Positions 37,671-61,925 of a DNA stretch of 64,000 bases are shown one piece after another. The position numbers and the translations under genes were made by a program. This DNA comes from Ancylobacter oerskovii. Its GTDB lineage: Bacteria; Pseudomonadota; Alphaproteobacteria; Rhizobiales; Xanthobacteraceae. The stretch is taken from positions 275,424-339,423 of the forward strand of contig NZ_JAHBGB010000044.1 in NCBI RefSeq assembly GCF_018390555.1, in the 5' to 3' direction. How positions within the stretch are numbered: position 1 is the first letter of the stretch; the number at the start of each line of letters is the position of its first letter. The notes under the pieces are model-generated. The model searched no databases. It saw only the letters and a program-made list of their open reading frames with translations, and had not been told where the DNA came from.

Positions 37671-38040
37671 GGCGGGTGAGGGGGAGGGCGATTGGGAAGC
37701 CAGGAAGACCCCTCACCCCACCCCTCTCCCCCACGGGGAGAGGGAGTAGGGCGCGCCGGGTGGAGGCGCGCGGCTCGCCGATGAGAGGCCGCAGTTACAT
37801 GGCGCGCCCTCCATCGGACGAGGAGTGTCTTTCAATCCGTCATGGCCGGGCTCGTCCCGGCCATCCACGTCTTCCCGGTGCCGTCGCGCCCAGCCGGGGC
37901 GTGGATCCCCCGGATCAAGCCCGGGGATGACGGGATGCCGGTGCACAGGAGGCCGTCGACGACGAGATGGCCGATGCCGTCGCCGGCCTCACGCCGCCGC
38001 GCTCGTTCCCGCCTTGGCGGCTTCGATCGCCTCCCACACC
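37671..38040. repeat. Tandem duplication, unit 2 (about 370 bp)
   Basis: Second copy, directly abutting unit 1. Its last 50 or so bases are the genuine 3' end of the coxL-like gene (stop at 37989-37991), so this is the parental copy and unit 1 the duplicate. Confidence 0.9.
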
Positions 38041-40298
38041 CGGAACGGGGTGAGCGGCATGTCGAGTTCGGTAATGCCGAACGGCGCGAGCGCGTCGATG
38101 ACCGCATTGACGAAGGCCGGCGGCGCGCCGATCGCGCCGGCCTCGCCGGCGCCCTTGATGCCGAGCGGGTTCGTCGTGCAGGGCACGTTCTGCGTCGAAA
38201 CCTCGAAGAAGGGCAGGTCCTCCGCGCGCGGCAGGGCATAATCCATGAACGACCCCGACAGCAGCTGGCCGCTGTCGGGGTCGTAGACCACATGTTCCAG
38301 CATCGCCTGGCCGATGCCCTGCGCGATGCCGCCATGCACCTGTCCGGCCAGTACCAGCGGGTTGAGCGTGCGGCCGAAATCGTCGACCACCGTGTAGCGC
38401 TCGACCTTGATCGCGCCGGTTTCGGGATCGACAGCCACCTCGCAAATATGCGCCCCGTTAGGGAAGGTGCCGATCATCTGCTCGAAATCGCCGACGCCGG
38501 TGAGGCCGCCCGCCTTCGCGGCCACCTCCAGGAGGCCGACATGCCGGTTGCTGCCGGGCACATGGAAGGCGCCGTCCTCGAAGGCGATTTCGTCCGGGAC
38601 GGCATCGAGCAGCTTCGCCGCCTCCGCCCGGGCCTTGCCGATGAGATCGCCATTGGCGAGCCGCAGCGCGCCGCCGCCATGCACCATGGAGCGCGACGCC
38701 ACCGTGCCGCCGGCCGAGGGCAGCGGCTGGTCGGTATCGCCGGTCTTCACGGTGATGCGCTCGACATCGATACCCAGTGCTTCGGCGGTCATCTGCACAT
38801 AGGTGGTCTCGTGGCCCTGGCCGGTGGACTGGGTGCCGACATGCACCGTCACCGCCCCCCCGGCGGAGATTTCCACCACCGCGCCTTCCTTGCCCGGCAC
38901 GCCGGTGCGCTCGATGTAGTAACCGAGGCCGATGCCGCGCATCAGCCCGTCCGCCTGCGCCCGGCGGGCGGGGAAGCCGGCCCAGTCGGCGGCCTCCATC
39001 CCCGCACGCATCGCCGCGGCGAAGTCGCCGGAATCATAGGTGACGTCGGCTCCGGTCCTGTGCGGCATGTCCTCGGGGGCGATCATGTTGAGCGCGCGAA
39101 GCGCCTCCGGCGCCAGCCCCAGTTCCCGGGCCGCCTTGTCGACGATGCGCTCGATGAGATAGGCGGCTTCCGGTCGGCCGGCGCCGCGATAGGCGTCCAT
39201 CGGCGCGGTGTTGGTGAAGGCGACGCGCACATCGGTGGCGACGATGGGAATGCGGTAGACGCCCGGCGCCATGGGCGGGCCGGACAGCGTCGGGCAATAG
39301 ACGCCGAAGGCCGAGAGCGCACCGCCGCAGGGCACCATGGTCTCCACCAGCAGCGCGGTGAAGCGATTGTCGGCGTCGAGGCCGAGCCGGGCGCGCGAGA
39401 GATTGTCGCGGCCCTGCGTGTCGGAGAGGAAGGCCTCGGTGCGGCTCGACTGCCAGCGCACGGGGCGGCCGAGCTTGCGGGCGGCATAGAGCACCAGCCC
39501 CTGCTCGGGATAGGGGATCGCCTTCATGCCGAAGCCGCCGCCGACATCCGGGGTGATGACGCGCAGCTTGGTCGCCGGCTCGCCGAACAATTGCTCGAAC
39601 AGCCAGCCGCGGATCATGTGGCTGCCCTGCGAACCCGTCACCAGCGTGAAGTCGCCGGTTTCGGCGTCATGAAGGCCGATGGCGTTGCGCGGCTCCATGG
39701 AGGCGACGACGATGCGGTTGTTCACCACCTCGATCTCGACGACGCGGTGCGAGGCGGCGAGCGCCGCTTCCGTCGCCGTCACATCGCCATGGGCCCAATG
39801 CAGCGCGAGATTCCCCGGCGCCTCCGGGTGCAATTGCGGCGCGCCCTCGGCGAAGGCGGCGACGGGATCGACGACCGCCGGCAGGTCCTCGATGTCCAGC
39901 ACCACCGCCTCGGCGGCTTCCTGTGCCTGCAGCGCGGTTTCGGCGACCACGAAGGCGACGGGCTGGCCGAGATAGGTCACCTTCTCCCGCGCCAGCGGGT
40001 GATAGGGGGGGGTGGGCATGCGGCCGCCCTCGACATGGTCGAGCACGATGACGGCCGGCAGGGTGCCGATGCCGTCGGCCGCGAGATCGGCGCCGGTATA
40101 GATGGCGAGCACGCCGGGCATCTCCCGCGCTGCCTCGGCGTCGACACCGTTCAGGAGGCCATGGGCGACCGGGGAACGCACCACGAAGCCATGGGTCTCG
40201 CCGTCATGATGGATGTCGTCGGTGTAGCGGCCGGTGCCGGTGATGAAGCGCTGATCCTCGACGCGCCGGAACGGCTGGCCCACACCGAATTTCATCAC
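37989..40298 (-). CDS. Molybdenum hydroxylase large subunit (xanthine/CO dehydrogenase family, form II)
   Basis: 769 residues. N-terminal FGVGQPFRRVEDQRFITGTGRYTDD is typical of CoxL-like subunits. The Mo-site loop is AYRGAGR (Tyr370-Arg375 region), the form II signature; true CO dehydrogenases (form I) have AY-CSFR. DVGGGFGMKAIPYPEQ, STGQGHETTYVQMTAEALG (Gln-rich pterin contact) and the catalytic base in GAGEAG (Glu719) are present. It should hydroxylate an aldehyde or N-heterocycle with water as oxygen source. It has no adjacent medium or small subunit; candidates lie at 42828-44830 and 62040-63354. Divergent from another large subunit with a shared regulatory region. Confidence 0.9.
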   Translation of the reverse strand: MMKFGVGQPFRRVEDQRFITGTGRYTDDIHHDGETHGFVVRSPVAHGLLNGVDAEAAREMPGVLAIYTGADLAADGIGTLPAVIVLDHVEGGRMPTPPYHPLAREKVTYLGQPVAFVVAETALQAQEAAEAVVLDIEDLPAVVDPVAAFAEGAPQLHPEAPGNLALHWAHGDVTATEAALAASHRVVEIEVVNNRIVVASMEPRNAIGLHDAETGDFTLVTGSQGSHMIRGWLFEQLFGEPATKLRVITPDVGGGFGMKAIPYPEQGLVLYAARKLGRPVRWQSSRTEAFLSDTQGRDNLSRARLGLDADNRFTALLVETMVPCGGALSAFGVYCPTLSGPPMAPGVYRIPIVATDVRVAFTNTAPMDAYRGAGRPEAAYLIERIVDKAARELGLAPEALRALNMIAPEDMPHRTGADVTYDSGDFAAAMRAGMEAADWAGFPARRAQADGLMRGIGLGYYIERTGVPGKEGAVVEISAGGAVTVHVGTQSTGQGHETTYVQMTAEALGIDVERITVKTGDTDQPLPSAGGTVASRSMVHGGGALRLANGDLIGKARAEAAKLLDAVPDEIAFEDGAFHVPGSNRHVGLLEVAAKAGGLTGVGDFEQMIGTFPNGAHICEVAVDPETGAIKVERYTVVDDFGRTLNPLVLAGQVHGGIAQGIGQAMLEHVVYDPDSGQLLSGSFMDYALPRAEDLPFFEVSTQNVPCTTNPLGIKGAGEAGAIGAPPAFVNAVIDALAPFGITELDMPLTPFRVWEAIEAAKAGTSAAA

Positions 40299-40425
40299 AC
40301 GCTCCCCTTCGAACCCGTTGGCCCAGCTTAGAACCGCTCTGCGCTCTTGCCAATGATACTGTTTGTGTAAAGATCAGCACATATAGTTTGATAAGCTCGA
40401 TAATCGAATAGGATAGTGCCTTGTG
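40299..40425. promoter_or_regulatory. Divergent promoter region between two hydroxylase large subunits
   Basis: AT-rich relative to the genes. TGATACT (40354-40360) and AAGATCA (40370-40376) form a dyad with a 9-base spacer; these half-sites recur at 45782 and 56263. A second palindrome TCGATAATCGA lies at 40397-40407. TTGATA at 40388 and GATAGT at 40412 could be -35/-10 boxes for the plus-strand operon. Confidence 0.55.
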
Positions 40426-42831
40426 ATGGGTACTGCCGCCAGGGGATCGTCGGTCGTGATCATGCAGGAAACGAGCCACGAGTCGCGCAAAGGCCGGGGC
40501 GTCGGCGCCTCCATCCGCCGCAAGGAGGATGCGCGGCTGCTGGCCGGGCGCGGGCGTTTCATCGGCGACATGCGTTTCCCCGGCCAGCTCGAAGCCGCCT
40601 TCCTGCGTTCGCCCTTCGCCCATGCCCGCATCCGGGCCATCCACATCCCCGCGCATCTGAAGGGCCGGGCCTTCACCCATGCCGACATGGTCGGCGTGAA
40701 GGACATCCTCGCCCGAACCGGCCTGCCGGGCTTCCGCGTCTCCGCCCAGCCGCCGCTGGCCAGCGGCAAGGTGCGCTTCGCCGGCGAACCGGTGGTGATG
40801 GTGCTGGCCGACACCCGCGCCGAGGCGGAGGACCTGATCGAAGAGATCGGCGTCGACTATGAGGAACTGCCGGCCAATCACGACATGCTGCGCGCGGTGG
40901 AGCCCGATGCGGCACTGGTGCATGACGAGTGGCCGGACAATGTGTTCCTCGTCTCGCAGACCGACAGGCATTTCGATGCAGGAACGCTCGCGGGCGCGCC
41001 GATCAAGGTGACGCGCAAGGTGCGCACCAGCCGGCAATGCATGTCGCCGCTGGAGGGCAAGGGCTGCATCGCCGTCTATGAGCGGCATGTCGAGCAGCTG
41101 GCGCTGTGGACCTCGACGCAGATGCCCCACATCGTGCGCTCCGGCCTCGCCGAATGCCTCGGCCTCGACACTCGGCAGATCCGGGTGGTGGCGCCGGATG
41201 TCGGCGGCGGCTTCGGCTGGAAGGGGCTGCTGCAACCGGAGGAGGTGTGCTGCGCCTGGGCGGCCTTGAGGCTCGACCGGCCGGTGAAATGGCTGGAGGA
41301 TCGCCGCGAGCACCTGATCGCCGCCGCCAATTGCCGCGAGCATCATTATGTGATGACCGCCTATGCGGACACGGACGGCACGCTGCTCGGGCTCGACGCG
41401 GTGGCGCATGTCGATGCCGGCGCCTATTCGGTCTATCCGTTCTCCGCCTGCCTCGAAGGCGCGCAGGTGGTGTCGAACCTGCCGGGACCTTATAATTTGC
41501 CGGCTTATCGATGCCGCACCACGTCGGTGTGCTCCAACAAGCCGCCCATCGTGCCCTATCGCGGCGTCGCCCGTACCGGCGTGTGCACGGCGATGGAGCT
41601 GATGATCGACGCGGTCGCCCGCGAAGCCGGGCTCGACCCCTGTGACGTGCGGATGCGCAACCTCGTCCGCCCCGAGCAGATGCCGTTCACCTCGATCACC
41701 GGCAAGGATTTCGACATGGGCGACTATCCCGAGAGCCTGCGCCGGGCGCGGGAGATGATCGGCCATGAGGCGGTGCGGGCGCGCCAGCAGGCGGGCGAGG
41801 CGGATGGTCGTCTCGTCGGCCTCGGCTACGCCACCTATTGCGAGCAGGGCGCGCACGGCACCTCAGTCTATCACGGCTGGGGCATCCCGATGGTGCCGGG
41901 CATCGAGAGCTGCGGCGCCCGCCTGACCCCGGACGGCACGCTGGAAGTGCGCATCGGCGCCCAGAGCCACGGCCAGTCCATGGAGACCACCATGGCGCAG
42001 GTCGCCTGCGAAGTGCTGGGCATCGACCCCGCGCAGGTGAACGTCGTGCATGGCGATACGGCGATGACGCCCTATTCCACCGGTACCTGGGGCTCGCGTT
42101 CGGCGGTGATGTCGGGCGGCGCGGTCGCCAGCGCCTGCGAGCGGCTCGGCGAGCGCATCAAGCGTATCGGCGCGCATCTGCTGCAGGCGCCCGAGGAGGC
42201 CGTGGCGATCCGCGACGCTGAGGTGGTGGGGCCGGCCGGCTCCGTCAGTTTCGCCGAGGTGGCGAAGACCTGGTACCTCGCGCCGCAGAATCTGCCGGCC
42301 GATATCCACCCGGACGGCCTCGATCTCGTCGCCGGCTACAGGCCGACGGTGGACACCGGCACCTTCTCCTATGCCAGCCATGCCGCGGTGGTGGCGGTGG
42401 AGCCGGAGACCGGCGAGGTGGAGATCCTCGATTACGTCATCGTCGAGGATGGCGGCGTGCTGCTCAACCCGATGGTGGTGGACGGCCAGATCTATGGCGG
42501 CACCGCGCAGGGCATCGGCACCGCGCTTTACGAGGAGATGACCTATGACGAGCACGGCCAGCCCCTGGCCTCGACGCTCGCCGACTATCTGCTGCCCGGC
42601 GCCGGCGAGATGCCGGCCGTGCGCATCGACCATATCCAGACGCCCTCGCCCAACACCCGCTTCGGCCAGAAGGGCATCGGCGAGGGCGGCGCCATCGCCC
42701 CGCCGGCGGCGCTGGGCAACGCCATCAACGACGCGCTGAAGGGGCTGGGTGTCGAGCTCTCCATGTCGCCGATGACGCCGCGCCGGGTGCGGGCGGCGGT
42801 GGCCGCCGCGCGCGAAGGGGCGGTTTCGTGA
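40426..42831 (+). CDS. Molybdenum hydroxylase large subunit
   Basis: 801 residues from the ATG at 40426; the GTG at 40423 and an ATG at 40462 are also possible because no strong ribosome site decides. GASIRRKEDARLLAGRGRFIGD opens the aldehyde oxidase/xanthine dehydrogenase fold. DVGGGFGWKGLLQPEE, the loop VPYRGVARTGVCTAMELM (form II-like, P-Y-R-G-V-A-R), GAQSHGQSMETTMAQVACEVLG and GQKGIGEGGAIAP (catalytic Glu) are present. It belongs to the group that oxidises N-heterocycles or aldehydes. Followed by medium and small subunits with 4-bp overlaps, giving a complete L-M-S enzyme. Confidence 0.92.
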   Translation: MGTAARGSSVVIMQETSHESRKGRGVGASIRRKEDARLLAGRGRFIGDMRFPGQLEAAFLRSPFAHARIRAIHIPAHLKGRAFTHADMVGVKDILARTGLPGFRVSAQPPLASGKVRFAGEPVVMVLADTRAEAEDLIEEIGVDYEELPANHDMLRAVEPDAALVHDEWPDNVFLVSQTDRHFDAGTLAGAPIKVTRKVRTSRQCMSPLEGKGCIAVYERHVEQLALWTSTQMPHIVRSGLAECLGLDTRQIRVVAPDVGGGFGWKGLLQPEEVCCAWAALRLDRPVKWLEDRREHLIAAANCREHHYVMTAYADTDGTLLGLDAVAHVDAGAYSVYPFSACLEGAQVVSNLPGPYNLPAYRCRTTSVCSNKPPIVPYRGVARTGVCTAMELMIDAVAREAGLDPCDVRMRNLVRPEQMPFTSITGKDFDMGDYPESLRRAREMIGHEAVRARQQAGEADGRLVGLGYATYCEQGAHGTSVYHGWGIPMVPGIESCGARLTPDGTLEVRIGAQSHGQSMETTMAQVACEVLGIDPAQVNVVHGDTAMTPYSTGTWGSRSAVMSGGAVASACERLGERIKRIGAHLLQAPEEAVAIRDAEVVGPAGSVSFAEVAKTWYLAPQNLPADIHPDGLDLVAGYRPTVDTGTFSYASHAAVVAVEPETGEVEILDYVIVEDGGVLLNPMVVDGQIYGGTAQGIGTALYEEMTYDEHGQPLASTLADYLLPGAGEMPAVRIDHIQTPSPNTRFGQKGIGEGGAIAPPAALGNAINDALKGLGVELSMSPMTPRRVRAAVAAAREGAVS

Positions 42832-43642
42832 AGGCCGCGCGTTTCGATTATCGGCGTCCGGCCACGGTCGCCGAGGCGGTGGCGGCGCTGGTCGAAGATG
42901 GGGCCGCCAAGCCGGTGGCCGGCGGCCAGAGCCTGGGGCCGATGCTGAACCTGCGTCTCGCCCGGCCCTCGACGCTGGTCGACGTCGCGAAGATCCCCGG
43001 GCTGCGCCGCGTCGAGGAGCGCGCCGACGGCGTGCTCTACGGCGCCGCCATCACCCATGCCGAATTCGAGGACGGCGTGGTGCCGGATCCGACGCCGGGC
43101 TTCCTCGCCCGCATCGCCCACGGCATCGCCTATCGCGCGGTCCGCAATCGCGGCACGGTCGGCGGCAGCCTCGTCCACGCCGATCCCGCCGCCGACTGGC
43201 CGACCACGCTGACCGCACTCGGCGCCCGCGTGGCGCTGGCCGGCCCGTCCGGCACCCGCGAGCTGGCGCTGGAGGATTTCCTGCTCGGCGCCTTCTCCAC
43301 CGCGCTGGAGGATGGCGAGATCGTCACCGGTGTCTTCGTGCCGCGCTGCTCGGCGGGGGCGCGTTTCGGCTACCGCAAGTCCTGCCGCAAGGTCGGCGAG
43401 TTCGCCGAGGCGATGTGCGCGGTGCTGGCGGACGACGTTCGCGGCGTGCACCGCCTCGTCATCGGCGCCACCGAGGGGCGGCACATTGTCGTCACCGAGG
43501 CGAAGGGCGTCCTCGCCGATCCGCGCCTTCTCGATGAACGTCTCGCGAGCGCCGGCCTTGCCGCCGATCCGTCGACGCTGCGCCTGCATCGGAAGGTCAT
43601 CTCCCAGGCTATTGAAGCGCTGAATTCCGAAAGCCTGCCCGC

Positions 43643-43646
<4 letters not shown>
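42828..43646 (+). CDS. Molybdenum hydroxylase FAD-binding (medium) subunit
   Basis: 272 residues starting at GTG that overlaps the large-subunit stop. FDYRRPATVAEAVAALVEDGAAKPVAGGQSLGPMLNLRLARP contains the AGGQSL FAD-pyrophosphate motif; RAVRNRGTVGGSLVHADPAADWP is the second FAD motif (TVGGSLAHADP type). The C-terminal CO dehydrogenase flavoprotein domain follows. It passes electrons from the small subunit to an acceptor. Overlaps the next gene by 4 bp. Confidence 0.93.
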
Positions 43647-44830
<1,184 letters not shown>

Positions 44831-44873
44831 GCGGAACAAGCGGTCAGCCGACCGAGGCAGCCGCTTCCGACGT

Positions 44874-44908
44874 CGTCATGCCCGGGCTTGGTCCGGGCAT
44901 CCACGCCT
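44874..44908. repeat. Repeat family C copy
   Basis: GTCATGCCCGGGCTTGGTCC followed by GGGCATCCACG forms a hairpin between the hydroxylase operon and the convergent GntR gene. It may serve as the terminator for both, as no other terminator is visible. Confidence 0.65.
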
Positions 44909-44975: not shown

Positions 44976-45728
44976 TCACCGCAGCAGGTCGACGTCCAGC
45001 TGCACGCAATCGCCGCGATAGATGATGTCGGCGACATAGATCACCGTATCGGCGTCGTCGGTGACGACGAGATGCGCCTCCACCGTCGGGAAGCCGATGC
45101 CGATGGCGAGCAGATTGGCGACGCGCGGCTCGACCGTGCCGACGATGAAGGATTGGCGGGCCTTCGCCACCTTCAGGCCATCCAGCGTGGCGATGACGCT
45201 GACGGTCGGCTCGCGGTCGAAGCGGGCGGGCGCCATCCGGTAGACGGCGTCGTCGAAATGCACCCGCGCGAAGGAATAGGGCTGGCCGCGCCGCGACTGC
45301 ACGCTCTCCAGATAGCGATAATGCGCGGCCGGCGTGCCGTCCTCGGGGCGGATCTGCGGCGGTGCCGCGGGGGTGGCTCCCGGCACGAAGCGCGGCACGT
45401 TTGCCCCGATGATGCCGGCGATGGAGTGCCATTTCAGGTCGAGCGTCAGCCAGCGCTTCTCTTCCACCGCGCCGGAGACGAAGGTGCCCTTGCCCTGGAT
45501 GCGGCGCACCAGTCCCTCGCCCTGCAGCACCTCCACCGCCTGGCGGACGGTGACGCGGGCCACCTGGAACTCGGCCTCCAGCTCCTGCAACGTCGAGATC
45601 TTCTCGTTCGGTCCCCAGACGCCGTCCTCGATGCGGCGGCGGATGACGCCGGCGATCTGCAGATAGCGGGGCACCGGGCTGCGGCGGTAGTCGGGATTGG
45701 CCAGCGCGGCCGTGTTGTCCTTCAGCAT
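44976..45728 (-). CDS. GntR-family regulator with UTRA ligand-binding domain
   Basis: 250 residues from the ATG at 45728; a TTG at 45761 would add 11 residues. N-terminal winged helix: RYLQIAGVIRRRIEDGVWGPNEKI, LQELEAEFQVARVTVRQAVEVLQGEGLVRRIQGKGTFVSG. The C-terminal 160 residues fit a UTRA domain (effector binding; HutC subfamily). It lies between a molybdenum hydroxylase operon and pxpBC. The dyad at 45782-45801 in its own promoter is shared with two other promoters of the region, which suggests that it controls itself and this catabolic set. Confidence 0.9.
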   Translation of the reverse strand: MLKDNTAALANPDYRRSPVPRYLQIAGVIRRRIEDGVWGPNEKISTLQELEAEFQVARVTVRQAVEVLQGEGLVRRIQGKGTFVSGAVEEKRWLTLDLKWHSIAGIIGANVPRFVPGATPAAPPQIRPEDGTPAAHYRYLESVQSRRGQPYSFARVHFDDAVYRMAPARFDREPTVSVIATLDGLKVAKARQSFIVGTVEPRVANLLAIGIGFPTVEAHLVVTDDADTVIYVADIIYRGDCVQLDVDLLR

Positions 45729-45781
45729 CGGCTCGTGTCGTACCCATCGCGGCCGCTTCAACCAGCGGCAGAATCAACGAA

Positions 45782-45801
45782 TGATCTTATCTTCAGTATC
45801 A
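45782..45801. promoter_or_regulatory. Putative GntR operator at its own promoter
   Basis: TGATCTT-6-AGTATCA, i.e. TGATACT-GAAGAT-AAGATCA on the minus strand. It is 54 bases upstream of the gntR ATG. Same half-sites as at 40354 and 56263. Confidence 0.6.
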
Positions 45802-45824: not shown

Positions 45825-46862
45825 CTAGTCGAGATCGCACGCCGAGACCGCCCCGGAGATGAGATTGGCCGAATAGAGCGCCGCAAGGTCGATCTCGGCC
45901 GCCGCCCGCACCGGCGTCATCGACGCGATGAGGCCGAGGATCTCGCGTTCCAGCGCCCGGCGGGCAGCTTCCGCCTCGGCGATGCCCACGGCCTGGAAGC
46001 GGATCTCCGCGCCCGGCAGCAGCCGGCCGGCATGCGGCAGGTCGGCGGAGATCACGGTGGCGATCTTGGCGTAGCCGCCGACCGTCTGGTGGTCCGCCAG
46101 CAGCACGATGGGAAGCCCCGACCCCGGCACCTGGATGGCGCCGGTGGTGATGCCGTCGGAGGTGATGTCGGCGGAGGTGCGGAAAGCGAGCGGCGCACCT
46201 TCGAGGCGGATGCCCATGCGGTCCGCCTCGCGCGAGACGCGATAGGCGCTGCCGAGGAACGTCGCGAGGCCGGCCTCGGTGAAGGCGTCGTCCTGCGGAC
46301 CCAATACCACCCGTAGCGCGCCGTCGAAGCCGAGCGCGGGCGGATGCGGCAGTTCGAGGCAGGGGCTCCCCAGTGTGCCGGCGCCGATCGGCAGCCGGTC
46401 GCCCGCCTTCAGCGCCCGGCCGTCCAGCCCGCCGAAGCCGCCCTTGAGGTCGGTCGCGCGGGAGTTGAGAACCGCGGGGACCTCCACGCCGCCCGTCACC
46501 GCCAGCACCGCCGTGCCGCTGCCGCGCAGCGGGCCGATGCGCACGCCGGCGCCGGCCGGCACGTCGATGGCGCGCCAGGCGGGATAGCTGCGCGTCTCGT
46601 CCCCGCGGGTGACGTCGATGGCGGCCTCGGCACCGGCGAGCGCGATCCGCACCGGAGCCTCCTCGACGGTGAAGGCGGGGCCGATCAGGCGGCATTCGAG
46701 CGCGGCGGCGCCGGGATCGTTGCCGACCAGCGCATTGGCGAGGCGCAGCGCGACCGGATCGAGCGCGCCGCACACCGGCACGCCATAGGCCTGTGCGCCG
46801 GTGCGGCCGAGATCCTGCACCGTGGTCTGCGGGCCGGGCTGGGTGACGAGGAGGGCGCTCAT
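45825..46862 (-). CDS. pxpC: 5-oxoprolinase subunit C (biotin-dependent carboxyltransferase/KipA family)
   Basis: 345 residues. The family pattern is complete: LLVTQPGPQTTVQDLGRTGAQAYGVPVCGALDPVALRLANALVGN at the N-terminus, ECRLIGPAF, then VLGPQDDAFTEAG and ADITSDGITTGAIQVPGSGLPIVLLADHQTVGGYAKIATVI. With PxpA and PxpB it catalyses ATP-dependent opening of 5-oxoproline to glutamate. Its ATG overlaps the pxpB stop. Members of the family also open other lactams or act as allophanate/urea-amide hydrolases, so the substrate here may differ. Confidence 0.9.
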   Translation of the reverse strand: MSALLVTQPGPQTTVQDLGRTGAQAYGVPVCGALDPVALRLANALVGNDPGAAALECRLIGPAFTVEEAPVRIALAGAEAAIDVTRGDETRSYPAWRAIDVPAGAGVRIGPLRGSGTAVLAVTGGVEVPAVLNSRATDLKGGFGGLDGRALKAGDRLPIGAGTLGSPCLELPHPPALGFDGALRVVLGPQDDAFTEAGLATFLGSAYRVSREADRMGIRLEGAPLAFRTSADITSDGITTGAIQVPGSGLPIVLLADHQTVGGYAKIATVISADLPHAGRLLPGAEIRFQAVGIAEAEAARRALEREILGLIASMTPVRAAAEIDLAALYSANLISGAVSACDLD

Positions 46863-47617: not shown

Positions 47618-47778
47618 GGCACTCCGATGCTGGGCGTGTCAGGAAGGATATTGCTGTGCGTCAATCATCCTAATGTTAGGATGTTTCAGCTTGAAAGGCA
47701 TGATAATTTAATGCCTTAATAAGTCAGCTGTCGAGGGGTGAGGCTTTCCCTTCGGGTTCATCGATTCAGGAGGCGTCT
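47618..47778. promoter_or_regulatory. Divergent pxpB-pxpA promoter region with two inverted repeats
   Basis: 161 AT-rich bases. CATCCTAA and TTAGGATG (47666-47683, 2-base spacer) form one dyad. AAGGCAT and ATGCCTT (47695-47717, 9-base spacer) form a second. Neither matches the GntR half-sites. A TTG start for pxpA follows AGGAGG at 47768-47773. Two different regulators may bind here. Confidence 0.6.
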
Positions 47779-52769: not shown

Positions 52770-52965
52770 GGGGACGACTTTCTTCTTCTCACCTCTCCCC
52801 GTTGGGGAGAGGTCGGCCGCGAAAGCGGCCGGGTGAGGGGGAGCACGATTGCGGAGCGAAAGAAGACCCCTCACCCCGGCCCTCTCCCCGCGGGGAGAGG
52901 GAGCAGAACGCAGCCCCTCCCCGTTGGGAGGAGGGGCGGTCCCTTCTCCCGACGGGAAGGGAAGC
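52770..52965. repeat. Cluster of family A hairpins
   Basis: Several hairpins follow one another: CCTCTCCCC/GGGGAGAGG near 52792, CGGCCGC/GCGGCCG near 52814, CCTCTCCCC/GGGGAGAGG near 52881, and CCCTTCTCCC/GGGAAGGG near 52941. They lie between the CoA-transferase B subunit and the LLM gene on the same strand. They probably act as terminator or mRNA processing site. Confidence 0.75.
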
Positions 52966-53769: not shown

Positions 53770-54712
53770 AGATGCCACTCCCGCGACGCTGGGCGTCGAG
53801 CAATTCGGCCATGCCGATGCGGCTGAGATAATCCGCCCAGTCCTTCGGCTCGTAATGGAAGCGCTCGAGATACTCCGCCGCGCCCTTGTCCGGGTCCTTG
53901 GCGGTCATCTGCGCATAGAGGTCCATATGCGAATAGAACGGCTCGTAGAGGCCGTAGCATTCGTGCGGCGCCGAGCCGAACGGCACTTCCACCACCGCGT
54001 CGACGGTGAAGAAGCCGATCTTGGTCTGGTCGGGATGCCGGCGGATCTGGTCGTTGGAGACGATGCGCTCGGTGGTCAGGATCACCCTGTTCGCCGCCAT
54101 GGCGATGTCGATGTCCATGAAGGACAATCCGTCGAGCTGGGCATTGCCGTAGGCGTCACAGCGCTGGACATGGATCAGCGCCACGTCGGGGTTCAGCGCC
54201 GGCACCAGCAGCAGCGTCTCGCCGGTGAACGGGCATTCCATGGTCCTGGCACCCGGCGCGCGGTCGACCACGCCCGAGCCCATCATCGAGCGCATCGGCA
54301 TGAACGGCACGCCCATGGCGCCGGCGCGGTAGCGCAGGCCCATCGCCATGTGGCTCCATTCCTCGAAGGTGGCGCGATGGGATTCCGTATAGGCGCGCAT
54401 CACCTTCGACACGCCCCACACGATGCCTTGGCTGAACCATGAGGTGATGATGTGCCGGGACAGGCCGGAGGCGTAGAGCAGGTCGCCCTCGGTCGACATG
54501 ATCGAGCGGGAGACGGTGAGGCCGGTCTTGCGGGCGCGGATCAGCGCCCAAAGCATCGCCATCGGGGTACGCGAGGCGGTACAACCGCCCAGCGCCACCG
54601 AGGCGCCGTCCGGCACCAGCTTCGCGGCTTCCTCCAGCGACATCACCTTGTCGCGCAGGCTGCGGTCGCGCTCGCGGGTCTTCTGTCGCAGGTCGAGATA
54701 GGATTGGGTCAC
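53759..54712 (-). CDS. CoA-transferase subunit A (glutaconate CoA-transferase type)
   Basis: 317 residues from GTG at 54712, which has GAGGAGG upstream; an earlier ATG at 54751 would overlap the preceding gene. N-terminal KVMSLEEAAKLVPDGASVALGGCTASRTPMAML is the alpha-chain start; VPFMPMRSMMGSGVV and VALIHVQRCDAYGNAQLDG are typical of the GctA/IpdA group. It pairs with the B subunit. IpdAB of actinobacteria is a steroid-ring hydrolase in the same fold, so hydrolysis of a cyclic CoA ester is an alternative to CoA transfer. Confidence 0.88.
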   Translation of the reverse strand: MTQSYLDLRQKTRERDRSLRDKVMSLEEAAKLVPDGASVALGGCTASRTPMAMLWALIRARKTGLTVSRSIMSTEGDLLYASGLSRHIITSWFSQGIVWGVSKVMRAYTESHRATFEEWSHMAMGLRYRAGAMGVPFMPMRSMMGSGVVDRAPGARTMECPFTGETLLLVPALNPDVALIHVQRCDAYGNAQLDGLSFMDIDIAMAANRVILTTERIVSNDQIRRHPDQTKIGFFTVDAVVEVPFGSAPHECYGLYEPFYSHMDLYAQMTAKDPDKGAAEYLERFHYEPKDWADYLSRIGMAELLDAQRRGSGIYDD

Positions 54713-54725
54713 GCGCTCGCCCTCC

Positions 54726-56219
<1,494 letters not shown>

Positions 56220-56314
56220 TCTCTCGACCTGTTCGGGGTCGGCGCCGCGCGCCTTATTCCCATGATACTAATGATAGTATCAATTTGGCAAATTCTTCTT
56301 TTGTATCACGCATA
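56220..56314. promoter_or_regulatory. Promoter and operator of the PLP/CoA-transferase operon
   Basis: TGATACT (56263-56269), spacer AATGAT and AGTATCA (56276-56282) form a perfect 7-bp dyad. On the minus strand a -35-like TTGCCA (56291-56286) and -10-like TATCAT (56267-56262) are 18 bases apart, with the dyad between and over them, as expected for a repressor site. It shares half-sites with 40354 and 45782. Confidence 0.7.
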
Positions 56315-57043
56315 TCATATCGACAGGTAAGCCTCGCTCACGGTCGGGTCGGCCATCAGCTCGGTGGAGGCGCCCGCCCGCGTCACCCGGCCGTTCTCCA
56401 TGATGTAGGCGCGATGGGAGAGCTCGAACGCGGTCATCACGTCCTGCTCGACCAGCAGGATGGTCTGGCCGGCCTTGTTCAGCTGGATGAGCGCCTCGCC
56501 CAGATGCTCGACCATGCGCGGCGACAGGCCGAGCGAGAGCTCGTCGATCATCAGGAGCTTGGGCCGCGACATGATCCCGCGCCCCACCGCGCACATCTGC
56601 TGTTCGCCGCCCGAGAGCGTGGTGGCGTCCTGCCGCTGGCGCTCGGCGAGGATCGGGAACAGCTCGAACACCCATGCGAGGTCGCGGGCGATGTCGTCCT
56701 TGTCGGTGCGCAGATAGGCGCCGAGCAGCAGGTTGTCGCGCACGGTGAGACCGCGGAACAGCCGGCGCCCCTCCGGCACATGGGCGATGCCGGCGGTGAG
56801 CACCGCATCCGGCTTCGCCCCGCCGATCGCGCGGCCGTCGAAGCGAATGGTGCCTTCGCGAGGGGCCAGTTGCCCGGAGATCGTCCGCAGCAGCGTCGAC
56901 TTGCCGGCGCCGTTGGAGCCGACCAGCGCCACCACCTCGCCGCTGTGTACCGCCAGATCCATGCCCCACAGCACCTGAATCTGGCCGTAGCCGGAGGTGA
57001 CGCCGGCGAGTTCGAGCAGGGGGTCGAGCCGCGGTTCAGGCAT
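56315..57043 (-). CDS. livF: Branched-chain amino acid-type ABC ATPase (LivF)
   Basis: 242 residues. Walker A VGSNGAGKST, signature LSGGEQQM, Walker B LLMIDELSLGLSP and H-loop LLVEQDV (Gln-Asp context with E in place of H, the usual LivF pattern) are present. Overlaps the livG stop by 8 bp. Energises import of amino acids or aromatic acids. Last gene of the Liv operon; the PLP/CoA-transferase operon follows after 95 bp on the same strand. Confidence 0.94.
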   Translation of the reverse strand: MPEPRLDPLLELAGVTSGYGQIQVLWGMDLAVHSGEVVALVGSNGAGKSTLLRTISGQLAPREGTIRFDGRAIGGAKPDAVLTAGIAHVPEGRRLFRGLTVRDNLLLGAYLRTDKDDIARDLAWVFELFPILAERQRQDATTLSGGEQQMCAVGRGIMSRPKLLMIDELSLGLSPRMVEHLGEALIQLNKAGQTILLVEQDVMTAFELSHRAYIMENGRVTRAGASTELMADPTVSEAYLSI

Positions 57044-57794
57044 GATGAAGCTCCTTCAACCGCGCCGCGTATTTCTGGCCGAGATAGGCCTCGATCACCC
57101 GCTCGTCGGCGACGATCTCCTTTGCCGGCCCGTCGGCGATCATCTGGCCGTGATGCAGCACGAGAAGCCGTTTCGACAACGACAGCACCACCTTCATCAA
57201 ATGCTCGATGATCAGCACGGTGACGCCGCTCTCGGCGATCTTGCGGATCAGCGCCAGCGCGCCGTCGATCTCGGAGGAGTTGAGCCCGGCATTCACCTCG
57301 TCGAGCATCAGCACCTTGGGCTGCATGGCGAGGCTCTTGGCCAGCTCCAGCCGCTTGCGGGCAGCCAGCGCCAGCTGCGCCGCCGGCCGGTCGGCCAGCG
57401 GGGCGAGGCCGACGAAGTCGAGGCTCTTCCGCGCCATGTCGCGGGCGTCGCCCACCGAGGCCGCGCCGCCGCCGAACAGCGCGCCGGCGGTGACGTTCTC
57501 GATCACCGTCATCTGCGGGAAGGGCTGCACGATCTGGAAGGTACGGGCGAGCCCGCGCCGCGCCGCCTCGTGGGGCTTCTGCGCCGCCACGTCCTTGCCC
57601 TCGAACAGGATCCTGCCGGTGGAGGCCGGCAGCTTGCCGGTGACGACGTTGACCAGCGTGGTCTTGCCGGCGCCGTTCGGGCCGATCAGCCCCACCACCT
57701 CGCCGGGAGCGAGTGCGAAGCTCACATCGGTCAGCGCCTTCAGCCCGCCGAAGTTCTTGCAGACGCCTTCGAGCTTGAGGATGGGCTCCGTCAT
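57036..57794 (-). CDS. livG: Branched-chain amino acid-type ABC ATPase (LivG)
   Basis: 252 residues from the ATG at 57794. Walker A GPNGAGKTT, a LivG-type signature region LALAARKRLELAKSLAMQP (A-L-A-A-R-K in place of the classic LSGGQ, seen here directly), Walker B VLMLDEVNAGLNSSE and H-loop IIEHLM. Start overlaps the livM stop (ATGA). The altered signature is a departure worth checking, although LivF carries a normal one. Confidence 0.92.
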   Translation of the reverse strand: MTEPILKLEGVCKNFGGLKALTDVSFALAPGEVVGLIGPNGAGKTTLVNVVTGKLPASTGRILFEGKDVAAQKPHEAARRGLARTFQIVQPFPQMTVIENVTAGALFGGGAASVGDARDMARKSLDFVGLAPLADRPAAQLALAARKRLELAKSLAMQPKVLMLDEVNAGLNSSEIDGALALIRKIAESGVTVLIIEHLMKVVLSLSKRLLVLHHGQMIADGPAKEIVADERVIEAYLGQKYAARLKELHHA

Positions 57795-58726
57795 GCCGGG
57801 CCTCCCGCGCTTCTCTTGCGCGCGAGGCTCAGCAGCCCGCCCGGCAGGAAGAACACCAGCAGCACGATGACGACGCCGAGGATGGCGCGGTTCCAGTCGA
57901 GGAAGTTCGCCCAGAACACTTCCTCGAGCAGCACGAAGGCGGCGGCGCCGAGGAACGGCCCGGCCAGCGTGCCCGCTCCGCCGAGCATCGCCATCACCGG
58001 CACCTTCACCGTCATCAGGATCTGGAAGGATTCGGTCGGGTCGATATAGCCAGTCCAGGAGGCGTAGGCGGCGCCCGCCGCGGCGCAGAACACCGCCGAC
58101 AGCGTGTAGGCCGCCACCTTGTAGCGGGTGGTGTCGATGCCGACCATGGCGGCGGCGTCCTCGTTCTGGTGGATGCAGCGCAGCCCGAAGCCGAGCCGGG
58201 AGCGATCCACCAGCGCGGTGGCGATCAGGCTCAGGATCAGGATGGCGAGCATCACGAACAGGAAGAAGCGCATCACCTGTTCGGGCCCCCAGGTGAGCAG
58301 CGGCAGGTTGAGCCCGTCGCCGCCGCCGGTGAGGCTCGACCAGGAGGAGACGATGAGCCGGCACACTTCCACCACGGCGATGGAGCCGATGGCGAAGTAA
58401 TGTCCCTTCAGCCGCAGGATGATCGCCCCGAGCAGCGCCGCGAAGGCGCCGACCATGAGGGTGGCGATCAGCCAGGCCAGCACCATCGGCACGCCGGCGC
58501 GCTGGCAGATGGCGCCGACATAGCAGCCGAGCCCGAAGAAAGCGGCGGTGGAGAAGGAGGGATAGCCGGTGAAGCCGCCGATGAAGTTCCACGAGGTGGC
58601 GAGGGCGCCGTACATGGCGACGATGGCGGCGGTGCGCACCACGTAATTGTCGGCATAGAGCGGCGTCGAGGCCAGCACGAGAATGCCGACGGCGAGGAGC
58701 GCATAGGCGAGGGGACCGGATCTCAT
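57791..58726 (-). CDS. livM: Branched-chain amino acid-type ABC permease (LivM)
   Basis: 311 residues, about ten helices. The conserved permease segment is GLRCIHQNEDAAAMVGIDTTRYKVAAYTLSAVFCAAAGAAYA; FIGGFTGYPSFSTAAFFGLG is the typical LivM loop. Its ATG overlaps the livH stop. Confidence 0.94.
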   Translation of the reverse strand: MRSGPLAYALLAVGILVLASTPLYADNYVVRTAAIVAMYGALATSWNFIGGFTGYPSFSTAAFFGLGCYVGAICQRAGVPMVLAWLIATLMVGAFAALLGAIILRLKGHYFAIGSIAVVEVCRLIVSSWSSLTGGGDGLNLPLLTWGPEQVMRFFLFVMLAILILSLIATALVDRSRLGFGLRCIHQNEDAAAMVGIDTTRYKVAAYTLSAVFCAAAGAAYASWTGYIDPTESFQILMTVKVPVMAMLGGAGTLAGPFLGAAAFVLLEEVFWANFLDWNRAILGVVIVLLVFFLPGGLLSLARKRSAGGPA

Positions 58727-59586
58727 TCATACCCCCTGACGCCGACGAGGCCGGTGGGACGGGTGAGCAGGATCGCCAGCATCAGCACGAAGCCGGCGGT
58801 GATCGCCTGCTGCGGGCCGAACCAGTGGCCGGCGAGGCTTTCCACGAGGCCGAGCACCAGCCCGCCGACCAGCGCGCCCGGCACCGAGCCGAGGCCGCCG
58901 ACGACGCAGACCACGAAGGCCTTGCCGAGATAGGTGCCGGTGACGTTGGTGGTGATCGGGAATACCGAGGCGAAGACGACGCCGGCCACGCCGGCCATCA
59001 GCGCGCCGATGCCGAAGGTGATGGCGTAGATGCGCTCGGTGCGGATGCCCATCAGCTCGGCGGCGGAGCGGTCCATGCGCACCGCGACGATGGCGCGGCC
59101 GATATTGGAGCCGCGCATCACCGCGTAGAGCGCCAGCGTCAGCACAAGGGCCAGCGCCGTGCCCACCAGCCGGTCGACCGGCAGCGTCACCGGCCCGAGG
59201 CTCACCGCGCCGAGGTCGAGCTGCACGCGCCGCGGCGTCGCCGTGAACCAATAGGTCATGACGTTGTAGAGGATCATGTCGAGGCCGAAGGTCAGCGTCA
59301 GCGTGGTCAGCACCGGGGCGCTCACCACGCGGTTGATGACCAGCTTCTGCAGCGCGAAGCCCAGCGCGAACAGGAGGGCACCGACCACCGGCAGCATGAC
59401 GATGGGGTGGATGCCCCAGCCGTGCCAGGCGAACCAGGTGAGGTAGCCGCCGAGGATGATGAAGGAGCCGTGGAGCATGTTGATGACGTTCAGCACGCCC
59501 CACACCAGCGAGAAGCCGACCGCGAGGCAGGCATAGAGCGCGCCCAGCATCAGCCCGTTGGCGAGGATCTGTGAATAGATGGCCAT
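58723..59586 (-). CDS. livH: Branched-chain amino acid-type ABC permease (LivH)
   Basis: 287 residues, eight helices. N-terminal NGLMLGALYACLAVGFSLVWGVLNVINMLHGSFIILGGY is the LivH signature; ILLTRPTGLVG is the common C-terminus. First permease of the operon, separated from the binding protein gene by a 193-base gap with repeats. Confidence 0.95.
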   Translation of the reverse strand: MAIYSQILANGLMLGALYACLAVGFSLVWGVLNVINMLHGSFIILGGYLTWFAWHGWGIHPIVMLPVVGALLFALGFALQKLVINRVVSAPVLTTLTLTFGLDMILYNVMTYWFTATPRRVQLDLGAVSLGPVTLPVDRLVGTALALVLTLALYAVMRGSNIGRAIVAVRMDRSAAELMGIRTERIYAITFGIGALMAGVAGVVFASVFPITTNVTGTYLGKAFVVCVVGGLGSVPGALVGGLVLGLVESLAGHWFGPQQAITAGFVLMLAILLTRPTGLVGVRGYE

Positions 59587-59779: not shown

Positions 59780-61021
59780 TCACTTCGGCATGGCGATGAG
59801 CTCGGCGTTCTTGATGTCCGCCGGGGCCAGCACCTTGATGGTCTCGTCCTGCACCTGGATGATCGGCAGCTCGCGCGGCAGGTTCATGCCGGTGGGGCCG
59901 AACTTGATCGGGCCGTAGAAGGTCTGGATGTCGGTCGAGGCGATGGCGTCGCGCAGCTTGGCCTTGTCGAGCGAGCCGGTGCGCTTCAGCGCCTCGGCGA
60001 TCACCTCGCCGGCGGCGGCGCAGGAGCCGTGCACATAGTCCGGGTCGGCGCCCTTGGTCTTGGCCTGGAAGTCCTTGTAGAAATCCGCCGTGGTCGGCCA
60101 CACGCCCTGGCCGGTGTAGTTGGTGGCGTGGTGCCACCAGCTCGACGAGGTGATGCCGTCGGCCAGCTTGCCGAGGCCCTCGGTGAACTCCTTGTAGGAC
60201 GGGCCCGTCACCATGGTGACGATCGGCGCGGTGACGCCGAGGTCCTGCATCTGCTTGCGGGCGAGGATCAGGTCCTGGGTGTAGCCGGACACGTAGATCC
60301 AGTCCGGCTTCGCCGCCTTGATGGAGGACAGCGCGGCGGCATGGTCCATGGTGCCGACCGGATAGAGCTCCTTATAGGCGACCGTCAGGCCCTGCGCCTC
60401 CGCCGCCTTGGCGATGCCCTCGGCCATCGATTTGGGGAACACGTCGTCGCGGCCGAGCACGGCGATGGTCTTGGTGTCCGGGAACTTCTCCTTGAACATC
60501 TTCACCATGGCGGTGGTCATGCCGCCATTGGGGGAGAGGGTGCCGAACAGGTGCTTCAGGCTCTGGTCGAACACGCTCTCCGAGGAGGCGACGCAGGCGA
60601 TGGTCGGCACCTGGTAGCGCTCGCCGACGCCGCCGACGATCTTGGTGTGGCCGGAGCCGAACGGGGCGAACAGGAACTGCACCTTGTCGTCGTTGATCAG
60701 CTTCTCGGCCAGCTGCGAGGCCCGCTGGCCCTCCGACTGGTAGTCGTACTCGATCAGCTCGACCTTCATCTTCTTGTCGCCGACCGCGAGGCCGCCGGCG
60801 GCGTTCACCTTCTCCACCCACATCTTCCAGACGAGGTCCTGCTTGTGACCCTCGTCGGCGAGGCCACCGGTGAGCGCCAGCGGCGCGCCGATCTTGATCG
60901 TCTCCTGTGCCAGCGCCGGGGCGGCGGCGGTGCCGGCGAGCGCGGCGAGCAGCGCGGCGGCCAGCAGGCCGGTTCGGCGCGGGGTGGAAGCGGCGCGGCG
61001 GCGGAGGTCTCGTTCGAACAT
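59780..61021 (-). CDS. Branched-chain amino acid-type substrate-binding protein (LivK family)
   Basis: 413 residues from the ATG at 61021. Signal peptide RTGLLAAALLAALAGTAAAPALAQ, cleavage near residue 39. The mature domain is periplasmic type-1 binding protein (IKIGAPLALTGGLADEG, KVQFLFAPFGSGHTKIVGG, VLGRDDVFPKSMAEG and GSCAAAGEVIAEALKRTGS). Such proteins bind amino acids, aromatic acids or amides. The ligand is not deducible. It leads the Liv operon and has a long leader with alternative hairpins. Confidence 0.93.
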   Translation of the reverse strand: MFERDLRRRAASTPRRTGLLAAALLAALAGTAAAPALAQETIKIGAPLALTGGLADEGHKQDLVWKMWVEKVNAAGGLAVGDKKMKVELIEYDYQSEGQRASQLAEKLINDDKVQFLFAPFGSGHTKIVGGVGERYQVPTIACVASSESVFDQSLKHLFGTLSPNGGMTTAMVKMFKEKFPDTKTIAVLGRDDVFPKSMAEGIAKAAEAQGLTVAYKELYPVGTMDHAAALSSIKAAKPDWIYVSGYTQDLILARKQMQDLGVTAPIVTMVTGPSYKEFTEGLGKLADGITSSSWWHHATNYTGQGVWPTTADFYKDFQAKTKGADPDYVHGSCAAAGEVIAEALKRTGSLDKAKLRDAIASTDIQTFYGPIKFGPTGMNLPRELPIIQVQDETIKVLAPADIKNAELIAMPK

Positions 61022-61451
61022 GTGCCTGTTCCTGTGCTCTGGAGGCTTATGTCTCTGGAGGCGGTGTCTCCAGAGGCGGTCTCTTGGGCGGGAAGCCGCC
61101 CTGCTCGAAGGGCCGTTCATGCGCGGAGCCACCGGGGCCTGAAGGGATGCGTGTCCCGCCCGATGGTATGGTGTGCTATGTGACCATACCAATATGCATC
61201 AATTCCTCAATCTGTAAGTAACTTAAGCATGCGCTAATTTTATGCGGCGCGTGCCTCTCGCGGCGGCACTTCCCGGCCGCCGGCGGCGGGGGAATGGCGA
61301 TGGACGGCGCCGTTGCACGCATGGCATGGTCGTTGCTCGCCGGGGAGCCGGTCCGGCCGCGCCGGCCCGTCAGTCCCTTCCGCGCGTCGCCGCCCGGCGC
61401 GCTTGCCTTCGTTCCGGCCGTCCGGCCGGCATCCTTGCTTCAGGTGGCTTC
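61022..61451. promoter_or_regulatory. Divergent regulatory region of the Liv operon and the coxG-S-M genes
   Basis: 430 bases. Besides the leader hairpins, a perfect dyad GGTATGGT (61165-61172), ten bases, ACCATACC (61183-61190) lies near the middle, followed by an AT-rich stretch (about 61188-61240). It is not the TGATACT element. The rightmost 200 bases up to the coxG-like start hold nothing I recognise. Confidence 0.6.
61037..61075 (-). promoter_or_regulatory. Leader with alternative hairpins
   Basis: On the minus strand, CTCTGGAG (61075-61068) can pair with CTCCAGAG at 61060-61053 or at 61044-61037, giving two mutually exclusive stems about 16-50 bases before the binding-protein start codon. 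Confidence 0.4.
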
Positions 61452-61925
61452 ATGGAATTTTCCGGCTCGCACCGCATCAACGCCCCCCGCGCCGTCGTCT
61501 GGGCGGCGCTCAACGATCCCGAGGTGCTGCGCCGCTGCACGCCGGGCTGCGAGGAGGTGGTGCGGGTCTCGCCGACCGAGTTCACCGCCCGCATGGTGCT
61601 GAAGATCGGGCCGATGAAGGTGAGCTTCGCCGGCAATGTGACGCTGACCGAGCTCGACCCGCCGGCGTCCTGCCGCATCGTCGGCGAGGGGCAGGGCGGG
61701 GTGGCCGGCTTCGCCAAGGGCTCCTCGCTGGTCCGCCTCGACGAGGAGGGGGAGGAGACGGTGCTGACCTATCAGACCGAGGCCAAGGTCGGCGGCAAGA
61801 TCGCCCAGCTCGGCGCCCGGCTGATCGACGGCACGGTGAAGAAGCTGGTCGGCGAGTTCTTCACCGCCTTCGCCACGGTGGTCGCGCCGCAAGCGGCGGC
61901 CGAACCCGTCGCCGGCGAGGCCTGA
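61452..61925 (+). CDS. CoxG/SRPBCC-family carbon monoxide dehydrogenase-associated protein
   Basis: 157 residues. MEFSGSHRINAPRAVVWAALNDPEVLRRCTPGCEEVV is the SRPBCC start of CoxG; LKIGPMKVSFAGNVTLTELDPP and GGVAGFAKGSS follow. Homologues aid membrane recruitment or maturation of CO dehydrogenase. It lies before a small and a medium subunit without a large one. Compare with the CoxG-like domain fused at 43643. Confidence 0.9.
   Translation: MEFSGSHRINAPRAVVWAALNDPEVLRRCTPGCEEVVRVSPTEFTARMVLKIGPMKVSFAGNVTLTELDPPASCRIVGEGQGGVAGFAKGSSLVRLDEEGEETVLTYQTEAKVGGKIAQLGARLIDGTVKKLVGEFFTAFATVVAPQAAAEPVAGEA

Follow-up and report, generated by a model that had tools for sequence, protein, structure and literature searches.

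A 64,000-nucleotide stretch of the Ancylobacter oerskovii genome (the window) holds, between positions 37989 and 61925, a set of genes listed in an initial annotation as two molybdenum (Mo) hydroxylases, the three-part lactam-opening enzyme PxpABC, fbiC for cofactor F420, an LLM-family probable F420 reductase, a two-subunit coenzyme A (CoA)-transferase, a pyridoxal phosphate (PLP) enzyme, an amino-acid-type importer and a UTRA regulator. Pfam and NCBIfam scans of the window's proteins from position 21017 onward confirmed the full list (Table 1). Both Mo hydroxylases are represented by large subunits of the CoxL type, and the PLP enzyme could be refined to a PALP-fold protein resembling cysteine synthase and cystathionine beta-synthase (CBS). 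A further group of F420 genes, headed by F420-dependent glucose-6-phosphate dehydrogenase (Fgd), lies outside the range covered by that annotation. The analysis used sequence only. Genomes compared carry G-numbers, and loci (DNA stretches) compared carry L-numbers.

Table 1. Genes and operator sites of the window
Feature	Position	Strand	Basis or remark
Fgd, CofE, CofC	22240-24695	+	Fgd TIGR03554, 476.5 vs cut-off 420 bits
CoxL_a, second CoxL-type Mo hydroxylase large subunit	37989-40298	-	Pfam MoCoBD_1/2, Ald_Xan_dh_C
CoxL_b, core Mo hydroxylase large subunit	40423-42831	+	Pfam scan
CoxM, FAD subunit of core Mo hydroxylase	42828-43646	+	Pfam scan
CoxS 2Fe-2S subunit fused to CoxG domain (CoxSG)	43643-44830	+	Fer2, Fer2_2 and COXG in one protein
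GntR/UTRA regulator	44976-45761	-	Pfam scan
Weak operator copy, upstream of GntR gene	45783-45800		3 mismatches, 16.0 bits (matrix match at 45781)
PxpC (CT_A_B), predicted lactam-opening subunit	45825-46862	-	PF02626, 282.9 bits over 25
PxpB (CT_C_D)	46859-47617	-	TIGR00370, 176.9 bits over 145.55
Operator CATCCTAATGTTAGGATG, pxpB/pxpA gap	47666-47683		38.3 bits (matrix match at 47664)
PxpA (LamB/YcsF)	47779-48555	+	333.5 bits over subfamily cut-off 226
FbiC (CofGH), FO synthase	48555-51047	+	CofGH equivalog, 1139 vs cut-off 1018 bits
Small protein between FbiC and LLM	51075-51707		No Pfam or NCBIfam match
LLM protein, F420-dependent family	51822-52769	-	TIGR03619, 200 vs cut-off 166.9 bits
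CoA-transferase subunit B (CoaTB), GctB-like	52966-53778	-	Catalytic-type Glu E68 kept
CoA-transferase subunit A (CoaTA), GctA-like	53759-54751	-	Family scans
PALP-fold PLP enzyme (PALP), extra N- and C-terminal parts	54726-56219	-	Cysteine synthase/CBS/beta-cyanoalanine-synthase-like core
Operator GATACTAATGATAGTATC, upstream of PALP-CoaTA-CoaTB-LLM	56264-56281		36.6 bits (matrix match at 56262)
Liv-type ABC importer: ATPases LivF, LivG; permeases LivM, LivH	56315-59586	-	Family scans
Liv-type solute-binding protein	59780-61192	-	Family scans
CoxG, CoxS, CoxM trio, no CoxL found adjoining	61242-63354	+	Possible partners of CoxL_a

The GntR protein is presumed to bind a palindromic operator with the consensus ATCATACTAA-TG-TTAGTATGAT. 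The pattern had 4 matches (one palindrome counted on both strands) against 0.37 expected, and none of 100 shuffles reached 4. With a weight matrix trained on 12 Ancylobacter sites, just three sites of at least 8 bits were found in the window, one upstream of each of the GntR and PALP genes and one between pxpB and pxpA. Across the genus, the copy before the GntR gene scores a median of 11.4 bits and as low as -2.6, being weaker or missing in some members. The exact operator core occurs at three places in the 5.48 Mb genome, two of them being the pxpB/pxpA and PALP sites; with one mismatch allowed, the core was not enriched genome-wide (8 sites vs 15 for a backwards control). Within the genus, PxpA promoters scored at least 22.2 bits in 20/20 loci and PALP promoters at least 28.2 bits in 19/19, some of these loci being part of the training set, and the CoxL_a/CoxL_b gap exceeded 6.2 bits in 9/16 (best 17.1). 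The start of fbiC overlaps the stop of pxpA (base 48555), and in Ancylobacter the operator reaches F420 synthesis through this pair, at the FO synthase step.

The genes also occur together. We searched 101 genomes (our own included; 30 of the genus and 71 outside it) with PALP, FbiC and CoaTA. In the genus, fbiC was present in 22 of 30 genomes, CoaTA in the same 22 and full-length PALP in 21 of these, while the other eight had none of the three. Outside the genus, FbiC was found in 11 of the 71 genomes. CoaTA at 64% identity or more was found in six, all with FbiC, and weaker matches (32–33%) in G063 and G092, both lacking FbiC; FbiC was accompanied by no such CoA-transferase in G051, G058, G064, G075 and G081. 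PALP at 58% or more was likewise found in six, among them G096, which lacks FbiC. Since the genomes compared are related and hence non-independent, no probability is given for this co-occurrence. In the 18 same-genus relatives with a window-type locus, PALP-CoaTA-CoaTB-LLM stood in a row in all 18, and FbiC and PxpA were both found in all 18 (within the two stretches examined for each). Two members of the genus, G007 and G009, carry a different cassette whose FbiC is 61% identical to that of the window, suggesting that it was acquired separately.

In distant genera a compact cassette comprises PxpA, Fno, CofE, CofD, CofC, FbiC, PALP, CoaTA, CoaTB, LLM and a transporter (L053/L090, L055/L095, L056, L063/L094, L064/L091, L065/L093, L066, L103, L106 and L173; L131 duplicates L055). 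Where the DNA covered extends far enough, CoxL_b-CoxM-CoxSG and GntR, the latter 42–48% identical to ours, lie within or adjoin it. Some loci are incomplete: no PxpA was seen in L055, and the part of L066 covered contains TRAP genes and lacks CofE, CofD and CofC. These distant cassettes lay outside the training set of the matrix, and sites of at least 10 bits were found before PALP, PxpA, PxpB, GntR and the binding protein, as well as before CoxL_b (L091, L095), Fno (L063, L064, L065), the TRAP gene DctP (L066) and diaminopropionate ammonia-lyase (DAL; L169). Three distant matches at this level had no relevant gene (L053:99, L094:4581, L051:3378), and L090, L116 and L174 had no match of at least 10 bits. 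In density terms, 32 sites of at least 15 bits fell in 311,719 bases of 17 cassette loci vs 0 in 222,757 control bases; the count leaves out the duplicate L131 and also L092, which adjoins the G009 cassette and whose two operator matches both lie beside the regulator gene of that cassette. Of 15 non-redundant distant loci, 12 had a PALP promoter scoring above 6.2 bits, the maximum among 193 control promoters. The operator-bearing gene differs from genome to genome; in G009 and G007 the operator directly precedes fno-cofEDC-fbiC. Taken with the conserved synteny, the common operator makes it very probable that the genes form one regulon. The check proposed in the initial annotation, a search for relatives in which the genes do not co-occur, thus turned up co-occurrence and synteny, and left its reading standing as far as the genes belonging together is concerned.

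Among 387 alphaproteobacterial genomes fbiC was present in 55 (our own included), and at the 29 other fbiC loci examined (30 loci were listed, our own among them) no PALP, CoA-transferase, PxpA or operator lay within about 1.5 kb. The cassette's role is therefore not the general role of F420 in Alphaproteobacteria, and that broader interpretation was rejected. The same 29 loci, the general roles of F420 and PxpABC elsewhere and the second PxpA encoded in this genome (at C25) could be taken to mean that the genes are neighbours without joint function, FbiC being general cofactor supply and PxpABC 5-oxoproline housekeeping. Set against the all-or-none co-occurrence in the genus, the recurrence of the cassette in distant genera and the common operator, this account is very improbable. 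In G064, two FbiC loci (L213, L214) each adjoin an Fgd relative (74–76%) with no cassette, another F420 context within the same order.

By family scans the genome encodes a full set of F420 genes: FbiC (the sole copy), CofE and CofC in the window, where CofD is absent between CofE and CofC (24015–24018), and CofD on contig C43. The neighbours of CofD (L219:8885-9802) are a class III aminotransferase, an LLM relative (37%), an M24 peptidase, a cupin and a Liv-like importer. The LLM protein is presumed from its family to be an F420H2-dependent ring reductase. Its start was corrected to about 52769; the open reading frame looks longer than the gene because the frame runs through intergenic repeats (52791–52950). 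These are hairpin repeats of the form CCCTCTCCCCG-CGGGGAGAGGG in the gap between LLM and CoaTB, and they recur at 37267–37374, near a phosphoribosyltransferase gene. The AlphaFold model of LLM was too poor to use (mean predicted local distance difference test score, pLDDT, 59.5). Cassettes carry either Fno (PF03807) or Fgd, both of which load F420 with hydride, the direction of bacterial Fno being that given in a review (PMC8498797), so LLM is best read as a reductase and F420H2-dependent reduction is a likely part of the pathway. The small protein between FbiC and LLM has a lipoprotein-like AACV stretch and is conserved in only part of the genus.

The best solved relative of CoxL_b, the core Mo hydroxylase subunit, is quinoline 2-oxidoreductase (1t3q), and its orthologues in distant cassettes are 59–66% identical. 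CoxL_a stays next to CoxL_b across the genus, has no adjoining small subunits and may be a genus-level accessory, perhaps partnered with the CoxG-CoxS-CoxM trio. Identity as a CO dehydrogenase was rejected for both large subunits (537 and 567 bits vs 950 for NF040766; 457 and 478 vs 991 for TIGR02416). Importers seen adjoining cassettes are of Liv or TRAP type, with no purine permeases.

For both CoA-transferase subunits, GctAB (1poi) is the best solved relative; subunit B is about 40% identical to its counterpart. E68 of subunit B aligns with the Glu of 1poi chain B (VESG) that we take to be catalytic, and is invariant in all nine cassette proteins aligned. This conservation, together with the likeness to GctAB, indicates that the enzyme probably forms thioesters. 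A steroid-type ring hydrolase (IpdAB) and a decarboxylase (AibAB) were rejected as identities, since GctAB had the highest score and the Glu is conserved. A CoA-transferase, and the TRAP importer of L066, suggest that the substrate bears a carboxylate. The A. fermentans enzyme, glutaconate CoA-transferase, serves glutamate fermentation.

All three subunits of the 5-oxoprolinase PxpABC are present. PxpC is 41% identical to E. coli PxpC, PxpB lies above its curated cut-off, and PxpA exceeds its subfamily cut-off and falls below all three equivalog cut-offs listed. Cassette PxpAs share 53–85% identity among themselves vs 39–43% to E. coli PxpA, forming by identity a group of their own, and unlike an ordinary 5-oxoprolinase they share an operator with a gene set of N-ring type. 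A true 5-oxoprolinase would suit a ring such as pyrrole-2-carboxylate, converted to 5-oxoproline by hydroxylation and reduction with F420H2 and then opened to glutamate: PxpABC is described as a 5-oxoprolinase (NCBIfam), and 5-oxoproline matches in ring size and carboxylate. Such a route has no need, however, for PALP, M20 hydrolases, DAL or the L-serine dehydratase SdaA, all of which recur in cassettes, and the separateness of the cassette PxpAs also speaks against it; we regard it as improbable.

The end of the pathway rests on PALP and the genes found in its place. The predicted PALP fold (pLDDT 83.4) had as its best 50 matches O-acetylserine sulfhydrylase (cysteine synthase), CBS, beta-cyanoalanine synthase and similar enzymes. 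Such relatives break or make a bond at C-beta of alanine, and PALP is presumed to be a lyase or hydrolase of a beta-N-substituted alanine. Near some cassettes lie DAL (500.6 and 505.7 bits vs a cut-off of 276), SdaA and M20 hydrolases, and in L211 a pyruvate-carboxylase-like gene; all of these point to pyruvate. Two genomes, G036 and G017, have the CoA-transferase, DAL and M20 and lack full PALP. In G036 the CoA-transferase gene lies next to the operators and PALP is missing from the operon; in G017 PALP is reduced to short end pieces (L208:9869-10087), while operator, CoA-transferase, LLM and FbiC remain. With DAL and M20 in place of PALP, a beta-N-substituted alanine would be cleaved to pyruvate, and PALP is read as able to replace M20 plus DAL. 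Among window-type genomes with PALP, DAL at E 1e-60 or better was found only in G029 (50% identity). The C3 product thus appears fairly likely to go to pyruvate, where the initial annotation had ended on amine removal.

Relatives of PALP are encoded at no fewer than 588 places, of which 80 loci underlie the neighbourhood counts. An SsnA-like gene was present in 19 of the 80; a Mo hydroxylase accompanied it in 14 and a YgfK-like gene in six. Clusters of Se-dependent xanthine dehydrogenase-like, SsnA-like, PALP, threonine-synthase-like and YgfK-like genes occur in L134, L105, L111 and L101. The Mo enzyme of L134 scores 895 against the cut-off of 830 of the Se-dependent xanthine dehydrogenase model, and the same locus has a xanthine permease (512 over 414). 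Clusters of this type may possibly represent an undescribed end of reductive purine breakdown, in which PALP and the threonine-synthase-like enzyme replace HyuA, YgeW, YgeY and YgeX. PALP relatives (54–57%) also lie on conjugative-typed plasmids of Rhizobium sp. NXC24 and Bosea vaviloviae (L087, L088), with M20, TauE/SafE and RidA nearby and no F420 biosynthesis gene within the annotated stretch; the Bosea plasmid also has ggt, and pyruvate carboxylase (pyc) about 8 kb from PALP.

The best explanation of the locus, with a probability of roughly one half, is a GntR-controlled catabolic regulon that both makes and spends F420. As in the initial annotation, its parts suit a sequence in which an N-containing ring is oxidised, reduced with F420 and opened, although the order of steps would differ, with CoA activation preceding the reduction rather than following ring opening. 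In the scheme proposed, a carboxylated N-heteroaromatic would be imported and the CoxLMS enzyme would add =O at the ring carbon adjacent to N (C2 in an imidazole). The GctAB-like CoA-transferase would then form the CoA thioester, exposing a ring C=C to hydride, and LLM would reduce the ring with F420H2 from Fgd or Fno (for an imidazole, hydride onto C5 of C4=C5), after which the CoA would be handed to the next substrate molecule. PxpABC, with ATP, would open the saturated five-membered cyclic amide or urea in the manner of 5-oxoprolinase, and the resulting beta-N-substituted alanine would be cleaved by PALP, or by M20 plus DAL elsewhere, to serine or pyruvate and ammonia.

A carboxylate group on the substrate is probable. 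Imidazole-4-carboxylate is favoured because every step of the scheme fits it, and is put forward tentatively: it would pass through 2-oxoimidazole-4-carboxylate and 2-oxoimidazolidine-4-carboxylate to albizziin (2-amino-3-ureidopropionate). 2-Oxoimidazolidine-4-carboxylate resembles 5-oxoproline and is a classical inhibitor of 5-oxoprolinase. The enzyme classes leave ring size unfixed, and the same gene logic could serve pyrazinoate, a pyridine carboxylate, an N-methylated imidazole or a heterocycle-alanine amino acid; pyrazinoate, on chemical reasoning, likewise has the diaminopropionate skeleton. As PxpABC by family favours a five-membered ring and a ureido-type M20 plus DAL pairing would suit imidazole better, a substrate of this wider group is unlikely. 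The most specific form of the scheme is doubtful but possible. It holds that in Ancylobacter and scattered Hyphomicrobiales F420 would serve chiefly for LLM-catalysed dearomatisation of an oxidised imidazole carboxyl-CoA, with the CoA-transferase shuttling CoA, a specialised PxpABC opening the cyclic urea, PLP-dependent cleavage of albizziin, and the same GntR operator switching F420 synthesis.

A number of observations weigh against an F420-making and F420-spending regulon of this kind. On the F420 side, TIGR03619 is a broad family, so that F420 use by LLM is a family-level prediction, and the genome has 27 PF00296 matches, other members of which F420 may serve too. The operator is missing before PALP in 3 of 15 distant loci (L116, L169, L174), and in the window there is none before CoxL_b (3.1 bits), Fgd-CofE-CofC (Fgd 1.6), CofD or the Liv importer. 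L169 has FbiC and PALP with no CoA-transferase or LLM in place, and three of eight loci with CoA-transferase and LLM (L099, L116, L147) show PALP and no FbiC in the DNA covered. Among the 18 same-genus relatives, the Liv importer stands beside PALP in 12 and is missing there in six, and CoxL_b is in place in 15, not found in two (G011, G029) and beyond the end of the stretch in G022; these are thus the less tightly bound parts of the set. CoxL_a was not seen among the distant cassettes examined. As regards the pathway's end, the G036 genome is only 74% complete, and in G017 the DAL-M20 pair (L210) is on another contig with no operator of at least 12 bits and an M20 that is not of the cassette type. 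G064, G083 and G087, none of which has the CoA-transferase, also carry DAL (56% or more), so that it is not exclusive to the cassette. In the Ancylobacter genome itself neither DAL nor a cassette-type M20 was found at the thresholds used, so that PALP would do the job alone there. A threonine-synthase-like PLP gene, present in 48 of the 80 PALP loci, has a role that the scheme leaves unexplained.

The nearest described system is the reductive urate pathway, encoded in E. coli by xdhD-ygfK-ssnA-hyuA-ygeW-ygeY-ygeX (PMC12507026), in which albizziin and 2,3-diaminopropionate occur as late intermediates (PMC12507026, PMC12990295). As outlined in those papers, it shares with the cassette a Mo hydroxylase-family enzyme and, on the scheme proposed here, reductive dearomatisation and ring opening, with M20 and DAL for a route to pyruvate in some cassette genomes, and some PALP loci have gene content of its kind (Xdh, SsnA-like, YgfK-like). 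Compared with the same outline, the cassette, which is found in soil alphaproteobacteria, has LLM and F420 for YgfK/UacX and PxpABC for HyuA, and adds the CoA-transferase, PALP and built-in F420 biosynthesis. An F420-dependent form of the purine pathway could accordingly be imagined, with the Mo enzyme acting on a purine, LLM in place of YgfK, PxpABC in place of HyuA on a hydantoin, and M20 and DAL as YgeY and YgeX. The company that PALP relatives keep with Xdh, SsnA-like, YgfK-like and xanthine permease genes favours it, as does the correspondence in kind of M20 and DAL to YgeY and YgeX, although the cassette M20 scores 124.9 vs the YgeY cut-off of 321. No YgfK/UacX reductase was found among the window genes scanned (from position 21017 onward), and the YgfK-like genes observed all lay in PALP loci of the non-F420 kind, together with SsnA. 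Against it, an SsnA-like query had no match at E 1e-5 in the window and 25 stretches, mostly cassette loci (the remaining genome was unsearched for SsnA), the CoA-transferase would have no role, and the importers are not purine permeases. We consider it rather unlikely.

Degradation of nicotinate by the 6-hydroxynicotinate reductase route also combines Mo hydroxylation with subsequent ring reduction, as proposed here; to our knowledge the reduction there proceeds without F420, and the route has no PxpABC, PALP or DAL. In actinobacterial F420-dependent biodegradation, for example of picrate, F420H2 reduces an aromatic ring and F420 is used for many purposes, whereas here fbiC lies inside a catabolic regulon. 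Searches of the open-access literature, largely at title and abstract level, for an imidazole-4-carboxylate route, 5-oxoprolinase substrates, albizziin enzymes and the gene combination returned no such pathway. The nearest hint is the mention, in the urate paper, of an F420-dependent luciferase-family gene in Chloroflexota (PMC12507026).

Elsewhere in the window, 25621–36083 forms a second N-compound module with two UgpC-like ATPases, two permeases, a gene in binding-protein position with a weak PotF match, a formamidase-like FmdA, a GMC oxidoreductase and a second LLM protein that scores below the cut-offs of every family listed. In G036 (L212), relatives of its importer genes are divergent from the CoA-transferase operon and adjoin operator sites.

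Why Proteobacteria and other new producers make F420 is given as an open question in a 2021 review, which also states that experimental studies of any F420H2-dependent reductase or F420-reducing dehydrogenase were lacking for non-actinobacterial producers (PMC8498797). For one lineage, the present locus offers a testable answer in an fbiC-containing regulon that is probably substrate-induced. The scheme predicts a novel chemistry of ring reduction and a novel role for PxpABC, and it would assign a function to a PLP family encoded at 588 or more places; relative to the urate pathway as outlined above, the novelty would lie in the absence of SsnA from the stretches searched and in the added CoA-transferase and PxpABC. 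If the scheme is true, these bacteria make F420 partly to reduce and open an N-containing ring as food.

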